Source of the DNA: a virus
Direction: 5' to 3' (one strand)
Virus record (IMG/VR): IMGVR_UViG_3300028146_000012
Span: 1 to 57,801 of that record
Length of the DNA: 57,801 bases
Shown here: in pieces, positions 2,893-32,748 of the stretch
How positions within the stretch are numbered: position 1 is the first letter of the stretch
How the letters are laid out: each line of letters starts with the position of its first letter
Notes under the pieces: model-generated
Told to the model about the DNA's origin: nothing
The model's input: only the letters and a program-made list of their open reading frames with translations
The model's database searches: none
Translations under genes and position numbers: made by a program

Positions 2893-3307
2893 ACTAACAA
2901 TACTCACCGCAATACTAATAGCAGTATTGTTCTTTGCGCTAGGACAGTTCACGGCGCGCTCTAAAACGACTACAGCGGACAAAAAAGTCGATGAAGTAAA
3001 AAACGTTAGTACGAAACAAAATGAAACCATCACTGAAGTCAAAAAGCCAGATGGTACCGTAACAACAGTCACTACTATAAATACAACGCAAGACACTATC
3101 GACAAAGTAGACACTCGCGTCTTAATGAAGATCGCGCCAGTACAGCCTAAATACAACGTGTCACTACTCGCAGTTACGACTATCCACAACCCATTTGCAG
3201 CGCCGTCTTATGGGCTAAGTATATCAAAAGAGTTCATCGGACTGAGAGTCAGTACGTTCGGACTAACTAATGGTACGTTTGGCGTCGGAATTGGTGTTGA
3301 TTTTTAA
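2882..3307 (+). CDS. Membrane-anchored protein with external threonine-rich segment
   Basis: 141 residues from the ATG at 2882, chosen because a GGAG site lies six bases upstream; an ATG at 2870 has none. Residues 6-24 form one hydrophobic segment (signal anchor). A polar, charged, Thr- and Val-rich stretch (about 28-85) follows, then a Gly-rich beta-like C terminus ending in GVGIGVDF. The order suggests an N-in inner-membrane protein exposed to the periplasm. It could be a spanin-like or superinfection-exclusion protein, but no specific motif shows this. Confidence 0.72.
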   Translation: MPSRLTILTAILIAVLFFALGQFTARSKTTTADKKVDEVKNVSTKQNETITEVKKPDGTVTTVTTINTTQDTIDKVDTRVLMKIAPVQPKYNVSLLAVTTIHNPFAAPSYGLSISKEFIGLRVSTFGLTNGTFGVGIGVDF

Positions 3308-3549
3308 TGGCAAAATACGATAACTTCGTTATAGTGTTAGATGACCCTAGAGACGCGGACTACTTAGAAATAGGTATGTACATAGTTTGGATAGATCGCA
3401 GGGAAGGTGCGATAGGATTTTCAGATATCAGTAATAACCCTATGTCAGTTACATGGCATAAATTTATATGGAAGTGCAGAAAAACTCTGCGAAAGGCATT
3501 TAGATGGATTACAAAGCCCTGGAACAAAAAATCATTAACTCATACGTAG
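3307..3549 (+). CDS. Hypothetical protein
   Basis: 80 residues in the operon between the membrane protein and the gene before recA. The first half is acidic with a VIVLDD strand; the C-terminal third is basic and tryptophan-rich (KFIWKCRKTLRKAF), which could contact nucleic acid or membrane. It starts directly at the stop of the previous gene and overlaps the next by 46 bases. No family recognised. Confidence 0.6.
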   Translation: MAKYDNFVIVLDDPRDADYLEIGMYIVWIDRREGAIGFSDISNNPMSVTWHKFIWKCRKTLRKAFRWITKPWNKKSLTHT

Positions 3550-24583: not shown

Positions 24584-24676
24584 ATGGCAGCAGTATATGC
24601 TAATAGTAGCAATCAAATCGCTGCGCTAAAAGAATTGTATACCGACGATAAAGAGTACATGAAGGATCTTGTCTAT
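24584..24676 (+). CDS. Major capsid protein, exon 1 (residues 1-31)
   Basis: First exon of the major capsid protein. The ATG has AAAGGA ten bases upstream. The frame reads to YMKDLVY and would hit a stop three codons later (TAG at 24686) in the intron. The protein family continues at this point with a K-x-NPFLAL sequence, which is found at 25395. The exon's last six bases GTCTAT pair with GTAGAC in the intron, with the U.G pair typical of a group I 5' splice site, so I place the boundary after 24676. Joined exons give about 432 residues. Confidence 0.85.
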
Positions 24677-25394
24677 AAAAATTTGTAGACGTTAAACTGA
24701 GCAAAATCGGTGGAGCCTAAAGCCTTGACAGCTAAGGTAATACCGAGGTAAGATAGTAGGTAAAGAACACTATCCACCGTAACGCGTAGAATGAGAAACT
24801 AATGAACTGCATAGTATGCGAGAAAAAACTGAGAAAAGATAATACTATAGGCACTTGTCGTGCTCATAGAGGTTTATCGCCAGTACGTCGCGCATATGAG
24901 AAATCTTGGCAACAAGATCACTCCGAACAGTATGTAGAAGCTAAAAAGCAATGGGGTAAAAGGAATCCTAAGTATTTTGTAGATTATCGAAATAAAGACA
25001 TTTCTAAGAAAATAGCGCATAATTTGCGCGTTAGAATTAGACATGCCATTAATCGCGGATCTGCAATTAAAAACTTAGGTTGTACTGTACCTGAGCTTTT
25101 GGCGCATTTAGAAGCTAAGTTTGCTAAAGGAATGACTTGGCAAAACTATGGTAAATGGCACGTTGACCACATACTGCCATTATCTAGTTTTGATTTGACA
25201 AATCCTGAGCAGCTTAAGCGGGCTTGCCATTATAGCAATTTACAGCCGCTATGGGGCGCGGATAATATCCGTAAACATGCGAAATTAGACTATCATTCCA
25301 AGAGTGCTTAGCACACAAATGTGTGATGATGTACGCTGAGCTTACAGGAAACTGTAAGAAGTAGAGGATAAAAAGCCTTTACGATAACAGACTG
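24677..25394 (+). mobile_element. Group I intron 1 in the capsid gene
   Basis: 718 bases. P1: exon GTCTAT (24671-24676) with GTAGAC (24685-24690), U.G at the splice site. P10: TTT (24682-24684) with the exon 2 start AAA. The terminal G is 25394. Core-like blocks flank the HNH ORF: a GCGTAGA stretch before it and GGATAAAAAGCCT plus ACGATAACAGA after it, both also present in intron 2. Removal joins LVY to KENPFLAL in frame, as expected of the capsid protein. The class is inferred; a full fold was not computed. Confidence 0.85.
24802..25311 (+). CDS. HNH homing endonuclease in intron 1
   Basis: 169 residues. An N-terminal CIVCEKK pair and CRAH suggest a zinc site. The catalytic part is WHVDHILPLSSFD with a following NLQPLWGADNIRK, the H-N-H pattern of group I intron endonucleases. 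It lies in a peripheral loop of the intron and would cut intronless capsid genes to spread the intron. The start ATG has only a weak ribosome site, as is common for intron ORFs that are kept at low expression. It is of a different HNH subfamily from the one in intron 2. Confidence 0.88.
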   Translation: MNCIVCEKKLRKDNTIGTCRAHRGLSPVRRAYEKSWQQDHSEQYVEAKKQWGKRNPKYFVDYRNKDISKKIAHNLRVRIRHAINRGSAIKNLGCTVPELLAHLEAKFAKGMTWQNYGKWHVDHILPLSSFDLTNPEQLKRACHYSNLQPLWGADNIRKHAKLDYHSKSA

Positions 25395-25454
25395 AAAGAA
25401 AATCCCTTCCTAGCTCTTGTTCCCAAAGACGAAAGCCCTGATGGCTTCGCGGGT
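25395..25454 (+). CDS. Major capsid protein, exon 2a (20 codons)
   Basis: Reads KENPFLALVPKDE then SPDGFAG, the conserved N-terminal region of this capsid family. It follows the terminal G of intron 1 at 25394. The next codon after GGT (25452-25454) is an in-frame TAA. The family sequence resumes 33 bases later in the same frame as KYIPVPLEYG. The exon end CGCGGGT forms a seven-pair P1-type helix with downstream GCCCGCG. Confidence 0.82.
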
Positions 25455-25487
25455 TAAAATACTTGCCCGCGTCTAGAGGCGCAATTG
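25455..25487 (+). other. 33-base core-less group I intron-like element
   Basis: The element begins with an in-frame TAA and interrupts the conserved capsid sequence between FAG and KYIPV. P1: exon CGCGGGT (25448-25454) with GCCCGCG (25465-25471), ending in the U.G pair that marks group I 5' splice sites. P10: ATACTT (25459-25464) with AAGTAT at the next exon start (25488-25493). The last base is G (25487). Its 3' part TCTAGAGGC resembles the 3' arm of the terminal hairpin of intron 2 (TCTAGACTC). Everything needed to define the splice sites is present; the catalytic core (P3-P9) is not. A real internal deletion, trans-acting splicing, ribosome bypass and an assembly loss all remain open. Confidence 0.75.
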
Positions 25488-25517
25488 AAGTATATTCCAG
25501 TGCCTCTGGAATACGGT
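25488..25517 (+). CDS. Major capsid protein, exon 2b (10 codons)
   Basis: Encodes KYIPVPLEYG, in the same frame as exon 2a but separated by the 33-base element with a stop codon. It ends at GGT; AATACGGT (25510-25517) pairs over eight bases with GCCGTATT (25525-25532), the P1 of intron 2. At 30 bases it is one of the shortest exons one would find in a phage gene. Confidence 0.8.
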
Positions 25518-26182
25518 GAAGGTTGCCGTATTTAAATCGACCAAAAACGGTGAATGCTGAAATGCAAATACCGTGCTAAGCTGAAAAACTAAAGAATTTC
25601 AGCCAGTGTAGAGCGTAGACCTTGACAACTGCCAAAAACAAGGGCAGAATAAAATAGGTCCAAGAGTGGTTGACAATCAAAAGGATTGAAAATGTACGCC
25701 GAACTTGAGCAAAAAGTTTGTAAGCAGTGCGGAAAACCTAAGCCCTTAAGTGAGTTTAGATTTCGCACAAGGAAAGGACGTAGCAAAGGCACATATGAAA
25801 GTTATTGTAAGAAATGTGAATACGATAACAATAAAATATGGGCCGCTGCTAATAAAGAGAAACGCAAAGATTCAGAATTTGAGAGAAATCTTAAGCGCAA
25901 GTTTAATATGACTCGAAAAGACTATGACGCGATTCTTTTAGCGCAAGGAAATAAATGTGCTATATGTCCGAAGCCTAGATCACTAAGCGGTAAAGCATTG
26001 GCAGTAGATCATTGTCATACTACGTTAGCGATACGAGGACTCCTTTGTAATGAATGTAATACAGCTATTGGTCTTTTCACTGAGAGCATAGAAATATTAC
26101 AATCTGCAATTGCTTATCTCACTAAGTTCAAGAAGTTAGGATAAAAAGCCTAACGATAACAGAGTCTATCTAGACTCACTTG
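25518..26182 (+). mobile_element. Group I intron 2 in the capsid gene
   Basis: 665 bases. P1: AATACGGT with GCCGTATT (eight pairs, U.G at the splice site). P10: GGTT (25521-25524) with exon 3 start AACC (26183-26186). The terminal G is 26182, preceded by a hairpin GAGTCT/AGACTC (26162-26177). Core-like blocks GCGTAGA and GGATAAAAAGCCT plus ACGATAACAGA match intron 1. Removal joins LEYG to NPMGRS in frame. The HNH gene's stop lies inside the 3' core, as in T4 introns. Confidence 0.88.
25692..26144 (+). CDS. Endonuclease VII-like HNH homing endonuclease in intron 2
   Basis: 150 residues from the ATG at 25692 (AAGGA nine bases upstream). N-terminal zinc ribbon (CKQCGK and CKKC), then a basic linker, then CAICPKP, the catalytic VDHCHTT and IRGLLCNEC. 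The catalytic half is of the same type as the free-standing genes at 37255 and 7949, so these probably share an origin. It would promote homing of intron 2. Confidence 0.88.
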   Translation: MYAELEQKVCKQCGKPKPLSEFRFRTRKGRSKGTYESYCKKCEYDNNKIWAAANKEKRKDSEFERNLKRKFNMTRKDYDAILLAQGNKCAICPKPRSLSGKALAVDHCHTTLAIRGLLCNECNTAIGLFTESIEILQSAIAYLTKFKKLG

Positions 26183-27298
26183 AACCCCATGGGTCGTTCG
26201 CATACATTCTCGAATGCGCAAAACCAACAGACAGCGACTAGTCTCGTATCGTACTTCGTGTACGTAATCCAAGACTACCAGCTTGTCACTATCACTAACC
26301 TCCTAATGGAACAGACTAAGACAAATGCAGGCGCATTCGTTGATGCTGCAAAACTCCAAATGGATGGTGGTTTTAGAAACATTACGAACAACATCGCATT
26401 TGAATTGTTCAACGATGGTACGGCAACTCGTGGTGCCTCGACTTCGGCTTCTACGCAGTCTGGCACAACCGTAGGCGGCACAGTATTGCCTCTTACGAAT
26501 GCACAGAACATCGTACAGTTCGAAGTAGGCCAGCTCCTAGTCGCTTCTAGCACTCCCGGCGGCGCTCCGTCTACAGATACAGTCCTAGTGACTGCAGTAG
26601 ACCGCGCTAACGGTATCGTAACAGGCACAGCTTCGGCTGGTAGCTTGAGCGGTAACTGGGCTATCGGCACAGGCAGTGCATACTTGACCGTATCTGGAGA
26701 CCTTCCGGCAGCCGGCGCGTCGAATACAGGCAGTTTCTTGGCTCTTTCGGGCCTTGCAGCTTGGATTCCGACGACTACGCCGAGCACATCGGATAGTTTC
26801 TGGGGTGTAAATCGTAGTGCAGACCCGACTCGTCTTGCAGGCTTGCGTTATAACGCGACTAGCCAGACGATTGAGGAAGGTATTACGAATGCACTGGCAT
26901 TCACTAACCGTGAAGGCGGCAAACCAGACCTTTGCATCATGGACTTTGCTTCATATGCAGCGCTGGTTAACGCTCTTGGCGCGAAAGTCCAGTACGTCCA
27001 GGTAAACCACGATGAAGTAGAAGTAGCTTTCGAAGGTATTACGTTTCAATCTGCGTATGGCAGAGTTACAATCCTTGCCGACAGATCTTGTCCACCCACT
27101 ACAGCATACCTATTAACCATGGCGACTTGGAAGTTGCGCAGCCTTGGAAAGGTTCCGCATATACTCACCTACGGTATGGAAGGTTTGGAAGGCTTGAGGG
27201 TCGGCAACGCTGACGCGCTCGAGATCAGGATCGGCTACTATGGTAACCTCATTTGTTCCGCTCCCGGATTTAATTGTGTCGTGCAGCTTTCAAGCTAG
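26183..27298 (+). CDS. Major capsid protein, exon 3
   Basis: 371 codons. Starts NPMGRSHTFSNAQ, the conserved continuation of the family, and has no start codon of its own with a ribosome site (the frame could begin at a TTG in the intron). The body carries a P-domain-like start, an insertion of beta-rich sequence (about residues 60-140 of the exon) and a C-terminal A-domain-like part (LLTMATWKLRSLGK). The HK97-like fold is inferred from position and style. A terminator follows at 27328. Confidence 0.85.
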   Translation, partial: NPMGRSHTFSNAQNQQTATSLVSYFVYVIQDYQLVTITNLLMEQTKTNAGAFVDAAKLQMDGGFRNITNNIAFELFNDGTATRGASTSASTQSGTTVGGTVLPLTNAQNIVQFEVGQLLVASSTPGGAPSTDTVLVTAVDRANGIVTGTASAGSLSGNWAIGTGSAYLTVSGDLPAAGASNTGSFLALSGLAAWIPTTTPSTSDSFWGVNRSADPTRLAGLRYNATSQTIEEGITNALAFTNREGGKPDLCIMDFASYAALVNALGAKVQYVQVNHDEVEVAFEGITFQSAYGRVTILADRSCPPTTAYLLTMATWKLRSLGKVPHILTYGMEGLEGLRVGNADALEIRIGYYGNLICSAPGFNCVVQLSS

Positions 27299-27406: not shown

Positions 27407-28669
27407 ATGAGAACTACATGGACTCTCCAAAAAATAACAGAAGCTGCTAGTAAATGTAAGAATAGGCGTGAACTTCAGACTAAGTTCATAGGAGCATATA
27501 AAGCTGCTGCTAGACTGGACATATTACATGAACTTTATCCTGACTATGCACAAATTCAATGGACGGATGAAATGCTTAAAGCAGAAGCATCTAAGTATAA
27601 AAGTAGAGGTGCCTTTGCAGCTAACTCATCAAGTGCTTATGTAATAGCCAGGAAACGCGGTTTACTTGACATTATATGTCCACCCAAAATAAGTAGAACA
27701 CACACTAGGGAAAGCCTTACAAAATTAGGAAAACAATATAAGACTAGAACAGAATTCGCCAGAAAAGACCCAGGTGCATATAGTTCAGCACAGCGCGCTG
27801 GTCTGTTGAATGAAGTATGTCCGCCCAACATAGGCGGTACATCACAAGGTGAAGCGGAACTATTAGAATTCCTCAGATCCTTAATATCTGATTTCATAAA
27901 AAAGAAATTTAGCAATGATTATGAGTTGGATTGCTATTCAGATAGCCTTAAGCTAGGTATTGAATATAATGGGCTATATTGGCACAGCGATGCCAATCCT
28001 AAAATGTTTCCTTCTTACCACGTTAAGAAAACAAAGTACTTCGAACAGCAGGGCATACGAGTTATTCATATATGGGAACACGAATGGACAGCACGCAAAA
28101 CCCAAGTAAAAAACTATCTTCAATCTGCCTGTAGAGTAAATACAGTTCGCTTGGGCGCTAGGAAATGTGAATTTAAAGAAATACCAGCACAGCAAGCCAG
28201 AGAATTCATACAAAATGCCCACATACAAGGCAAGCCTAATCATGTAGCCTTGGCAATCGGCTGTTTCTATAAAGAGCAACTAATAGCAGCTGCCAGTTTC
28301 GGGAGACATCACAGAGACAGCACAGCAAACTACGTTCTTAATAGATTCTGCTGTTTGCCGGGGTATACAGTATCTGGCTGTCTTGCAAAGATGTCTAAGC
28401 TTGCTGCCAATAAACTAGGGCCTTTGATATCGTGGGCAGATTACTGCAAAAGTCAGGCTGGTGGTTATATAGCGGCTGGATGGATAAAAGTCAGGACTTT
28501 AAAACCAGATTATTTCTATACAGACAAACGCGGCGGCGTGATAAGTAAGCAAGCCAGAAAGAAATCTCATGTTGATACGCCTCAAAGTATGACAGAATCA
28601 GAGCACGCTAAGCTAGATGGCTTGCATAGAATCTGGGATTGTGGCAAAATAGTACTAATATTTAAATAA
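27407..28669 (+). CDS. VSR-like (EDxHD-type) homing endonuclease
   Basis: 420 residues. N-terminal half: repeated helical DNA-binding units (SKCKNRRELQTKF, SKYKSRGAFAANS and GKQYKTRTEFARK, each followed by a SAY.IA/SAQ helix), like NUMOD or recognition helices. The nuclease core is around 170-230: LGIEYNGLYWHSD, then KYFEQQGIRVIHIWEHEW, which is the very-short-patch-repair fold used by I-Bth0305I-type homing enzymes. C-terminal part about 180 residues, unassigned. It stands directly after the capsid terminator, so it probably entered as a mobile gene near the intron-rich capsid gene. Confidence 0.82.
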   Translation: MRTTWTLQKITEAASKCKNRRELQTKFIGAYKAAARLDILHELYPDYAQIQWTDEMLKAEASKYKSRGAFAANSSSAYVIARKRGLLDIICPPKISRTHTRESLTKLGKQYKTRTEFARKDPGAYSSAQRAGLLNEVCPPNIGGTSQGEAELLEFLRSLISDFIKKKFSNDYELDCYSDSLKLGIEYNGLYWHSDANPKMFPSYHVKKTKYFEQQGIRVIHIWEHEWTARKTQVKNYLQSACRVNTVRLGARKCEFKEIPAQQAREFIQNAHIQGKPNHVALAIGCFYKEQLIAAASFGRHHRDSTANYVLNRFCCLPGYTVSGCLAKMSKLAANKLGPLISWADYCKSQAGGYIAAGWIKVRTLKPDYFYTDKRGGVISKQARKKSHVDTPQSMTESEHAKLDGLHRIWDCGKIVLIFK

Positions 28670-29918: not shown

Positions 29919-30140
29919 ATGAAAACTAAGAGTTTTTGGATATTCACAATAGGCATTAACGGTAATGATTATGACGGCGAAAACGGTTATATTTATTTTG
30001 ACATATACAGAATAGGGCATATAGGACTTTGGCTTGTTTCTAAAGAACGCCTGATATATTATGGGGTGCCTAGACTCACAATAGACTTTTATTTCCACAG
30101 ATTTTTGATTAACTGGTATAACAAAAGGAGAGCAAAATGA
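29919..30140 (+). CDS. Hypothetical aromatic-rich small protein
   Basis: 73 residues from the ATG at 29919. Tyr/Phe/Ile-rich with short strands and a Gly/Asp/Asn loop (GINGNDYDGENGY). No signal peptide is clear. Overlaps the MoxR-like gene by four bases, so it is the leader gene of that operon. No family recognised. Confidence 0.65.
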   Translation: MKTKSFWIFTIGINGNDYDGENGYIYFDIYRIGHIGLWLVSKERLIYYGVPRLTIDFYFHRFLINWYNKRRAK

Positions 30141-31252
30141 ATATCAAGGACTTTAAAGAGAGTTTGGATTATATGTTCAAAGCAGAACTCACGCCCTTCG
30201 TATGGGGTCATGCCGGAATTGGCAAGACCGAGAGCATTAGGCAGGTCGCTAAAGACTTTGGCTATCACTTCTTTGCGCTCTATCTCGGTACAATGTCAGA
30301 TCTTGGTGATATCCTAGGTCTGCAGGAATTCGTTAAGAATAGCGACGGAACGAAGTCTACGGCGTTTGCTATCCCGCAGTGGCTTAAGCAAGCCATCCAG
30401 TATTGTGAAGATCATCCTGAGTCAGGCGCAATCATATTCCTCGATGAATTTAATCGCGCCCGCCGAGATATTATGAATGGAATGTTCTCGCTGGCATTAG
30501 ATAAGACATTTCACACACTTAAGCTTCCAAAGAACTGCCATATAGTTGCAGCAGGTAATCCGCCTACAGATGAGTACTTCACTACAGACGTAGATGAGAC
30601 TGCACTTATGGCTCGTTTCGTACATATCAAGCTTGAGCCATCAATACAGGAATGGGTAGAATATGCCAAAAGCAGCGAAATCGATGCAAATCTAATCGGC
30701 TTTATTCAAGATCAGCCGAGTCTTCTTGAAGAAAAACGAACTGAATTCCCGCTGCCGATTAAAGTCGACCGCAGGGCGTATTCTAGATTAAACAAGCTCT
30801 TTAAACTCAATACCCCCCAGCATCTCATGGAATCGTTGATGCCCGGCATTATTGGTTTGGAGCGCACGGTAGCGTATAAGCAATACTTAAAAGAAATCGA
30901 TAAACCACTGACAGGCGAGCAAGTCCTGAAGCACGAGCGACCCGATCTCATCGAAAAATGGAGTAATCCCGATAACGTAGCAGCTAGTTTCTTGAACATT
31001 ACATGCGATAACCTTGTAGAATTGCTCACTAAACGCAACACCACTAAGTATTTATTGACATCAGCAGAAAAGAGTAACTTCATGTGGTTCCTTAATACTG
31101 TGCCAAAAGATATTAGCTACCGCGTATTCCATGCATTGGTGACCACACAGAATGCATTATTCAAGAACTTCCATACAGATGAGCTATATGCAAAGCAAAT
31201 AGCAGAACTTGCGCTGTCTGCGAAAGGTACTTTAGATAAAGAGGCTAAATAA
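30137..31252 (+). CDS. MoxR-family AAA+ ATPase
   Basis: 371 residues. Walker A GHAGIGKT (24-31), Walker B IIFLDE (99-104), sensor 1 in IVAAGNPP and a following LMARFVHIKL arginine-finger-like segment. MoxR AAA+ proteins form hexamers that remodel or activate partners, usually with a VWA-domain protein encoded next to them; such a gene follows at 31588. In bacteria these pairs assemble enzymes or act in stress and membrane processes. AAGGAG precedes the ATG. Uncommon in small phages. Confidence 0.88.
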   Translation: MNIKDFKESLDYMFKAELTPFVWGHAGIGKTESIRQVAKDFGYHFFALYLGTMSDLGDILGLQEFVKNSDGTKSTAFAIPQWLKQAIQYCEDHPESGAIIFLDEFNRARRDIMNGMFSLALDKTFHTLKLPKNCHIVAAGNPPTDEYFTTDVDETALMARFVHIKLEPSIQEWVEYAKSSEIDANLIGFIQDQPSLLEEKRTEFPLPIKVDRRAYSRLNKLFKLNTPQHLMESLMPGIIGLERTVAYKQYLKEIDKPLTGEQVLKHERPDLIEKWSNPDNVAASFLNITCDNLVELLTKRNTTKYLLTSAEKSNFMWFLNTVPKDISYRVFHALVTTQNALFKNFHTDELYAKQIAELALSAKGTLDKEAK

Positions 31253-31479
31253 ATGAAAGTCGGAAGTATATTGTATAACACAAGAACTAATAAATACTAC
31301 ATCGTTTCGCATATATATATAAGCGAAAACCCCAACACTACTTTAAAGTTATAGAATTAAGTAGTAACGAACCTAGCGATCCATGGAAGGAGCGAGAGGT
31401 GGGCGCGTGTGTGGGCAACGTGTGGGAAAAAACAGGAGAAGCTACTCTTCTAGAAAGGATAATATATGGAATTGATTGA
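31253..31479 (+). pseudogene. Tag-family gene with a frame break (possible -1 programmed frameshift)
   Basis: From the ATG at 31253 (AAAGAGG upstream) the frame reads MKVGSILYNTRTNKYY to ISENP and stops at 31354. The -1 frame continues from the same point as QHYFKVIELSSN and ends in TLLERIIYGID, the tail of the C-terminal tag family. The shift falls at the heptamer A AAC CCC (31327-31333), a canonical slippery form XXXYYYZ. The joined product (about 75 residues) matches the family's usual layout and is close to the protein at 36153. Either a working frameshift site, a recent mutation or a base-count error in a C run. Confidence 0.65.
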
Positions 31480-31597
31480 TATTATATACACTATAAGACA
31501 TTGGTTTGCACCTTATTATCTCGCAAGCAAGAATACTGAGGGCTGGTCAAAAGAATATAAGAGATTCGTTGCAGAAAAGAGGCGGAAATGGAACTAA
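31466..31597 (+). CDS. Small hydrophobic/basic peptide
   Basis: 43 residues whose ATG lies in the tag codons of the previous gene. Hydrophobic start (LIDIIYTIRHWF), then a basic C terminus (VAEKRRKWN). Overlaps the VWA gene by 10 bases and carries its ribosome site. Function unknown; may be only a coupling peptide. Confidence 0.45.
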   Translation: MELIDIIYTIRHWFAPYYLASKNTEGWSKEYKRFVAEKRRKWN

Positions 31598-32748
31598 AAA
31601 ACAAGGATGCGATAAGCCAAGCGATTATTAATTTATTCAATTCTGAGCGGTTCTATGCGGAACTCATATGTCAAATGCGTAGGGTTGTGTCGAGCCACAT
31701 ACCTAGGGCCGGCGTTTGTATTCGCGATCAAATCGAACTCCATATCAATCCAGAGTTCTTTGAAAATCTGCCAATAAAAAAGAGAGTCGCTGTGCTGAAG
31801 CATGAATGCGAGCATATCTTGCGGGACCACATAGGCCGCGCAAAAGAGCTTGCTCCTGAGATCTATGACGGCAAAAATAAGGCTTTAGAAGACAATATAT
31901 TGAGCAGCATGAAGCATAAAACATTGAATGTTTCAATGGATCTCGCGATCAATGGGATTATGCAAGATCTTCCAGAAGACGGAGTTTTCCCTAAGCAATT
32001 CGATCTTGAGAGCGGCCAGACAATGGAATGGTATCTCGCTAAGCTTAAAGACGATCCTAAAGCCAAAGAACTCATGGAATTCGATGGACATGAATTATGG
32101 AGTGAGTCGGAAGGCGACAAAGAGATTATTAAAGAGAAGATTAGACAAGCCGCTAATAAAGCTGCCAGGATTGCGCGAAGCGCAGGTAAGATGACCGCAG
32201 ACCAAGAACTCCTAGTATCTGAATTAAACAAAGCAACGGTGAATTGGCGCCAGCAATTGAAACGATTCGCGGCACGCACCATAGAGACCGCAATAGATAC
32301 AAGTAAAAAGAAAAGGAATCGTCGGTATGGTATTATGTTTCCTGGCACAGTAAAGACTGAAACCCTCCACATAGGCGTTGCTATAGATACCTCGGGCAGC
32401 GTATCGGACGAATCATTGAAGCAGTTCATGAGTGAAATTGGTAACATAGCAAAGTATGCCAAGGTTACAGTAATCGAAGCAGATACCGAGATTAAGAATA
32501 GCTATATATATGATCCTAAAAAGAAATACAAGGTTGCAGGTCGCGGCGGCACTGCTTATAAGCCTGCATTTGACTTCTTTAATGATAAAAAGAATACAGT
32601 AGATTCTGTTATTTACTTCGGCGACGGAGATTGTTACGATACAGAGAGATTAGTTAAGCCTAAATATCCTGTATTATGGGCTTTAGTAGGAAATCAGCCG
32701 CCTCCAACGACGTTTGGTAATGTCATTAGAATAGAGGTAAAAGAATAA
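31588..32748 (+). CDS. VWA-domain protein with HExxH metallopeptidase-like domain (DUF2201 type)
   Basis: 386 residues. The N-terminal domain holds HECEH (72-76), the HExxH zinc motif of the DUF2201 putative metallopeptidase domain. A long helical middle follows. The C-terminal VWA-like domain has the MIDAS motif DTSGS (Asp267, Ser269, Ser271) after IGVAI. This is the normal partner of a MoxR ATPase, encoded 335 bases upstream. Whether the HExxH is catalytic in this family is unknown. GAGGCGG precedes the ATG. Confidence 0.88.
   Translation: MELKNKDAISQAIINLFNSERFYAELICQMRRVVSSHIPRAGVCIRDQIELHINPEFFENLPIKKRVAVLKHECEHILRDHIGRAKELAPEIYDGKNKALEDNILSSMKHKTLNVSMDLAINGIMQDLPEDGVFPKQFDLESGQTMEWYLAKLKDDPKAKELMEFDGHELWSESEGDKEIIKEKIRQAANKAARIARSAGKMTADQELLVSELNKATVNWRQQLKRFAARTIETAIDTSKKKRNRRYGIMFPGTVKTETLHIGVAIDTSGSVSDESLKQFMSEIGNIAKYAKVTVIEADTEIKNSYIYDPKKKYKVAGRGGTAYKPAFDFFNDKKNTVDSVIYFGDGDCYDTERLVKPKYPVLWALVGNQPPPTTFGNVIRIEVKE

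Follow-up and report, generated by a model that had tools for sequence, protein, structure and literature searches.

The IMG/VR virus record IMGVR_UViG_3300028146_000012, analysed over its full length of 57,801 bases (hereafter the window), carries on the plus strand a gene for an SU10-like major capsid protein, which according to spliced alignment consists of four exons and three interruptions. Two of the interruptions are full group I introns of 718 and 665 nucleotides (nt), both with an endonuclease VII-like HNH reading frame, while the third is an element of 33 nt (25455-25487, TAAAATACTTGCCCGCGTCTAGAGGCGCAATTG). Judged from its sequence, this element is very probably a non-autonomous group I intron without a catalytic core (mini-intron), and the core of the adjacent intron 2 would remove both the mini-intron and itself. 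To our knowledge, every natural group I intron known brings its own catalytic core. The comparison with relatives makes it likely that a natural system of one core and two introns exists here, and that SU10-like phages widely carry core-less mini-introns, each with its own guide and tether, in their capsid genes.

The 33-nt element and its helices

The borders of the element were placed by protein alignment alone. It lies between exon 2a (25395-25454, KENPFLALVPKDESPDGFAG), which ends with FAG (GCGGGT, last base 25454), and the 30 nt of exon 2b (25488-25517), which encode KYIPVPLEYG; the element is in frame and contains one stop. From 5' to 3' it is composed of a 4-nt leader with the in-frame TAA, a P10 strand, a P1 guide strand, the strand of a further helix (X), AATT and a terminal G. 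The last 7 nt of exon 2a, CGCGGGT (25448-25454), pair with the guide strand GCCCGCG (25465-25471) to form a P1 of 7 base pairs (bp), termed P1-mini, with a U.G pair at the splice site. The P10 strand ATACTT (25459-25464), located directly 5' of the guide strand, forms 6 bp with AAGTAT (25488-25493) at the start of exon 2b. The joint score of P1 and P10 was equalled by none of 2000 shuffles (p = 0.0005). An earlier note on this DNA had described the element with the same borders, P1 and P10, and this description is confirmed, as the borders set by the protein coincide with a U at the end of the preceding exon, a G as final base of the element, the 7-bp P1 and the 6-bp P10.

Helix X comprises 11 bp between 25472-25482 (TCTAGAGGCGC) and 25500-25510 (GTGCCTCTGGA) of exon 2b. 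It accounts for the 3' part of the element better than the similarity to the final hairpin arm of intron 2 claimed in the earlier note. The last seven nucleotides of exon 2b (25511-25517) form the 5' strand of the P1 of intron 2 (P1-full), with the guide GCCGTAT at 25525-25531. In the unconstrained minimum-energy fold of 25440-25560, P1-mini, X and P1-full form three directly adjoining hairpins (z = -3.8), and none of 200 shuffles folded equally well. Intron 2 (25518-26182, plus strand, 665 nt), the proposed provider of the shared core, is a full group I intron without P2. Its core segment from P3 to P7 (25537-25712) was aligned with eight relatives, and its reading frame (25686-26144) encodes an endonuclease VII-like HNH protein (Pfam PF02945, E = 1e-23; PHROG 2633, E = 1e-37), a candidate homing endonuclease.

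The same 33-nt element is present in two relatives from other metagenomes (L245 and L246), with identical P10 and P1 strands and a different X (AGGTATAGG / CCTGTACCT) fitted to a different exon. The only variable part of the element, the X strand, thus covaries with the exon. The locus of L246 is compact: the 33-nt mini-intron is followed by an exon of 25 nt and an intron of 249 nt that has no full-length reading frame.

Mini-introns and their proposed partner introns in relatives

Relatives were gathered by scans with capsid proteins and with the intron core, resulting in about 125 distinct SU10-like capsid genes from IMG/VR, in which inserts were called by a spliced aligner written for this analysis. 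Short inserts (35 in 30 genes, 30-62 nt), which interrupt the reading frame and in many cases have a length not divisible by three, were found at eight sites between residues 22 and 413. All 33 mini-introns of the main set and both of those in L431, a gene from a later sample, are preceded by U and end in G, in L272 via a synonymous choice of border. Every mini-intron has a P1 matched to its own exon, and P10 lies directly beside P1 in nearly all of them. These helices, P1 with a U.G pair at the splice site and P10, are shared with autonomous group I introns. None of the mini-introns was found to have a catalytic core (P3-P9) of its own, and P1, P10 and X together with the 3' end take up all of their 30-62 nt. 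The earlier claim that all substrate elements of a group I intron are present without the core is therefore supported for the window and likewise for 34 more inserts in relatives. Several of the genes with mini-introns were found out of sample, through the intron core or a distant capsid match (L272, L336, L271, L276 and L431). In a collection of phages, no capsid relative and only one weak core match were detected. The search pattern GGATAAAAAGCCNNNNCGATAACA was discarded, since it matched mostly loci without this core, and short pieces called in L234 and L281 were artefacts around a P2-bearing intron.

P1 positions were paired in 93% of cases, compared to 55% with guides permuted among elements and 83% (maximum 90%) with guides permuted within a site. 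For P10, the corresponding values are 97%, 48% and 82% (maximum 91%). Silent changes in an exon are therefore mirrored by its guide, as seen at the site TDD/KEY with CTCTTT/AAAGAG, TTCTTT/AAAGAA and TCCTT/AAGGA. At ESP/DGF, mini-introns with the exon GAGAGTCC share a U-U mismatch at the fourth P1 position, which recurs in L003, L076, L218, L226 and L271. The 52-nt mini-intron at MKD/LVY of L005 and L006 has a weak P1 of 5 bp and an 8-bp pairing (GACCAGAG / CTCTGGTC) that adjoins no core.

Each of the 29 mini-intron-bearing genes of the main set also harbors a full group I intron, while 10 genes have a full intron without a mini-intron and 69 have neither (Fisher p = 3.8e-18). No mini-intron was found in some 90 capsid genes lacking a full intron. 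All 33 mini-introns of the main set are followed, within their own gene, by a full intron; a single flagged exception, the second "mini-intron" of L276, was an alignment artefact at a contig end. Both mini-introns of L431 are likewise upstream of a full intron each, and the intron-less genes of that later sample are free of mini-introns. Towards the 3' end of the capsid gene, L271 (10571-10860) and L431 (6084-6390) have a second hot spot for a mini-intron together with a 200-nt intron, the sites being RIG/YYG followed by APG or CSA/PG.

The partner-type introns belong to group I: P3, P4, P6, P7, P7.1 and P8 were recognized, with 92.8% of the alignment cells paired. A second type of full intron, about 200 nt long, has group I-like helices P3, P7 and P8. 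Since an Rfam search gave no match to either type, even at E<=1, the core helices were demonstrated by covariation instead: 20 pairs show double changes, above 500 of 500 shuffles, and slid versions were 27-41% paired. Class A cores directly following a mini-intron have no P2 of their own (leader of 29-39 nt), while cores in genes without mini-introns mostly have one (leader of 48-52 nt). The same core class was also observed in ribonucleotide reductase genes of cyanobacteria (after GLNPCG; L341, L342, L344 and L348) and apparently in tRNA genes of metagenome-assembled genomes of Bacilli (L343, L345, L346 and L349).

The tail of the mini-introns pairs over 8-13 bp with the short downstream exon (combined p = 1.8e-18). 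When X was limited to the 21 nt next to the P1 of the downstream intron, p < 0.05 was obtained in 22 of 26 cases (combined p = 4e-22), which establishes a physical link between the mini-intron and a core outside it. The exon strand of X usually ends 5-8 nt from the 5' splice site of the partner, most often exactly 7 nt, the length of P1. In minimum-energy folds of 30 regions comprising a mini-intron and a full intron, P1-mini was found in 28, X in 28 and P1-full in all 30. Partner cores are nearly always without their own P2. The mini-intron of L065, which precedes a P2-bearing intron, passes over this neighbor (p = 0.62) and pairs over 10 bp beside a later, P2-less intron of 202 nt (p = 0.005), while the two mini-introns of L076 pair beside two different cores. 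In both genes partnerships are interleaved, i.e. a mini-intron is paired across another intron to a core which is not the nearest one (L076, 4920-5990; L065, 4660-6012).

An insert of only 6 nt, TAACTG, is located between FAG and KYIPV in L330 (same contig as L350; reverse strand, about 3274-3345). In addition to its own guide, the leader of the downstream intron contains a second one, TATTTGCCAGCG, next to the core; this second guide fits both the FAG splice site (7 bp) and, as P10, the KYI exon. L378, with a near-identical capsid protein, has no insert at this site. The two-guide leader of L330 is the clearest sign of a core that would serve a second intron. The system of one core and two introns is likely to include this gene as its extreme, with a mini-intron of 6 nt and a guide moved into the ribozyme-bearing intron.

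Alternatives and the proposed excision pathway

Several ways to remove or bypass the element had been listed in the earlier note, among which excision by the core of the adjacent intron 2 appears best supported: X ties the element to the P1 of intron 2, and mini-introns were found only upstream of a full intron. A core acting in trans, either a free phage group I intron RNA or intron 1, might instead remove the mini-intron intermolecularly without a fixed partner in cis. P1-mini, P10 and X fold as a self-contained substrate module, and engineered group I ribozymes are able to remove introns in trans (PMC4094466). However, mini-introns always precede a full intron of their own gene and are absent from genes without one, and X matches one particular downstream intron, which makes a core from elsewhere unlikely as well as unnecessary.

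Programmed ribosome bypass, in which the ribosome would hop over the insert, is very improbable. In T4 gene 60 and in the byp elements of Magnusiomyces mitochondria, ribosomes skip short inserts that bring stops into a coding gene, and the codons for take-off and landing match. The stop just past the border, the hairpins, the short length and the essential gene give the element a superficial likeness to gene 60, but in none of 20 elements do the triplets for take-off and landing agree. Moreover, the inserts occur in several codon phases; at DLV/Y, the phase-1 inserts restore the conserved Tyr codon only when spliced. Bypass would also leave unexplained the U before and the G at the end of the inserts, P10, the obligatory company of a group I intron and the pairing with the P1 region of that intron.

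Very little speaks for a decayed relic of a full intron that lost its core in a dead or insert-tolerant gene. Full-length introns at the same site, FAG/KYI, do exist in relatives (L008, L035, L040, L216, L220 and L230) and would fit such an origin. On the other hand, among elements at one site the guides change along with the exon, distant phages have retained the same 33-nt element, and the mini-intron-bearing genes are open after splicing and under strong purifying selection. After removal of the inserts, the window gene has a nonsynonymous divergence (dN) of 0.03 and a synonymous divergence (dS) of 1.35 compared to L002. An assembly or sequencing artefact, e.g. a full intron collapsed by the assembler in this metagenomic contig, is the least credible explanation, since the same element in L245 and L246 from other metagenomes speaks against a local loss, 35 comparable elements stem from many metagenomes, and the covarying helices use nearly every base of the inserts.

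For the preferred explanation, excision by the core of intron 2, a pathway can be proposed from the arrangement of the helices. The guide strand of P1-mini continues directly as X, whose second strand leads into P1-full and thereby into the core. P1-mini and X are thus arranged like a P1-P2 domain, in which the 3' splice site of the mini-intron is located in the "P2" loop and P10 connects both loops by a kissing contact. The core of intron 2, devoid of its own P2, would first use P1-mini plus X as its P1-P2 domain. An exogenous G would attack after U25454, and the freed exon end would then attack after G25487, aligned by P10 as the P1-mini loop kisses the X loop. The mini-intron would depart with half of X, and the core would switch to its own P1 and remove intron 2. 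X would thereby tether the mini-intron to one particular core, and it may hold intron 2 back until the mini-intron is gone. Because full introns occupy FAG/KYI in other phages, mini-introns may have arisen from introns that lost their core after a neighbor had become able to act on them. In addition, their presence may protect the occupied site from homing endonucleases.

Several points weigh against excision by a shared core. Excision is deduced from sequence and predicted folds, and the terminal G of the mini-intron would still have to reach the guanosine site of the core. The genes are related, so that the p-values overstate their independence. X is weak or absent in L031, L220, the MKD mini-intron of L005 and L006 and the first mini-intron of L336, and the ESP mini-intron of L271 precedes a P2-bearing intron. 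Furthermore, P2-less cores without a mini-intron occur in intron 1 of the window, in L321 and L304 and in the cyanobacterial ribonucleotide reductase introns. The rule that a P2-less core always implies a mini-intron was rejected for this reason; the loss of P2 is not specific and permits sharing of a core, but does not require it.

Related systems and further features of the window

In split, trans-spliced mitochondrial group I introns, a single intron is divided into pieces on separate RNAs. Parts from different places assemble there as well, whereas two complete excision events on one RNA by one core are proposed here. The mini-introns and the core lie in one gene and on one strand, not as halves on separate transcripts. 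With autonomous phage group IA introns carrying HNH reading frames (T4, SPO1 and Twort type), to which the partner cores correspond, the mini-introns share the U at the 5' site, the terminal G, P1 and P10, but they differ from them by the lack of a P3-P9 core.

The closest analogue is represented by the group I spliceozymes of Amini, Olson and Muller (2014), which were engineered from the Tetrahymena ribozyme and act in trans (PMC4094466). As proposed for the mini-introns, a group I ribozyme recognizes both splice sites of a short core-less intron (64-100 nt) and removes it, although the 3' site is held by P9.2 of the ribozyme (PMC4094466). The mini-introns, in contrast, are natural, apparently served in cis and equipped with their own guide, and their tail pairs with the exon beside the P1 of the core-bearing intron. 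Cooperation between parts of two group I introns in one transcript is also seen in exon skipping in Twort orf142 and the SIOphi polymerase gene (PMC11878797). In these cases both introns have a core and a whole exon is lost, while here one intron is core-less and the small exon would be kept, as P10 pairs with its start. The capsid gene of Faustovirus contains many introns with AA/TG borders, some without a recognized group I core (PMC6247863), but was rejected as a precedent since these introns are 396 nt or longer. The literature searched, which left out most subscription papers and preprints, contained no precedent for a group I intron that naturally lacks a core, so that its absence is not proven.

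If one core serves core-less introns, the logic of the spliceosome, with dependent introns and a shared catalytic RNA, would have been reached independently by group I ribozymes. Among group I introns, the system would then represent a living counterpart to the transition from self-splicing to dependence on a shared splicing RNA, and a natural and testable model for the loss of autonomy by self-splicing introns. It would exemplify a self-describing intron of 33 nt, perhaps even of 6 nt, and supply natural parts for ribozyme engineering. Phage genes annotated as frameshifted or stop-containing might be spliced and should be regarded with caution.

The remaining parts of the capsid gene, all on the plus strand, are exon 1 (24584-24676, from the spliced alignment), intron 1 (24677-25394) and exon 3 including the stop codon (26183-27298; Pfam SU10_MCP PF17236, E = 1e-6; PHROG 9953, major head protein). 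Intron 1, the full group I intron of 718 nt with an HNH/endonuclease VII-like open reading frame at 24802-25308, is not the partner of the mini-intron; its P2-less core is of the same class, and no mini-intron was found upstream of it. Directly after the capsid gene, an open reading frame (27407-28669) shows weak similarity to Mom-family and restriction endonuclease-like domains and possibly represents a free-standing endonuclease or modification gene. Further downstream (30137-32748), a MoxR-like AAA ATPase is encoded, followed by a reading frame of 386 amino acids resembling a vWA/metallopeptidase-like partner.
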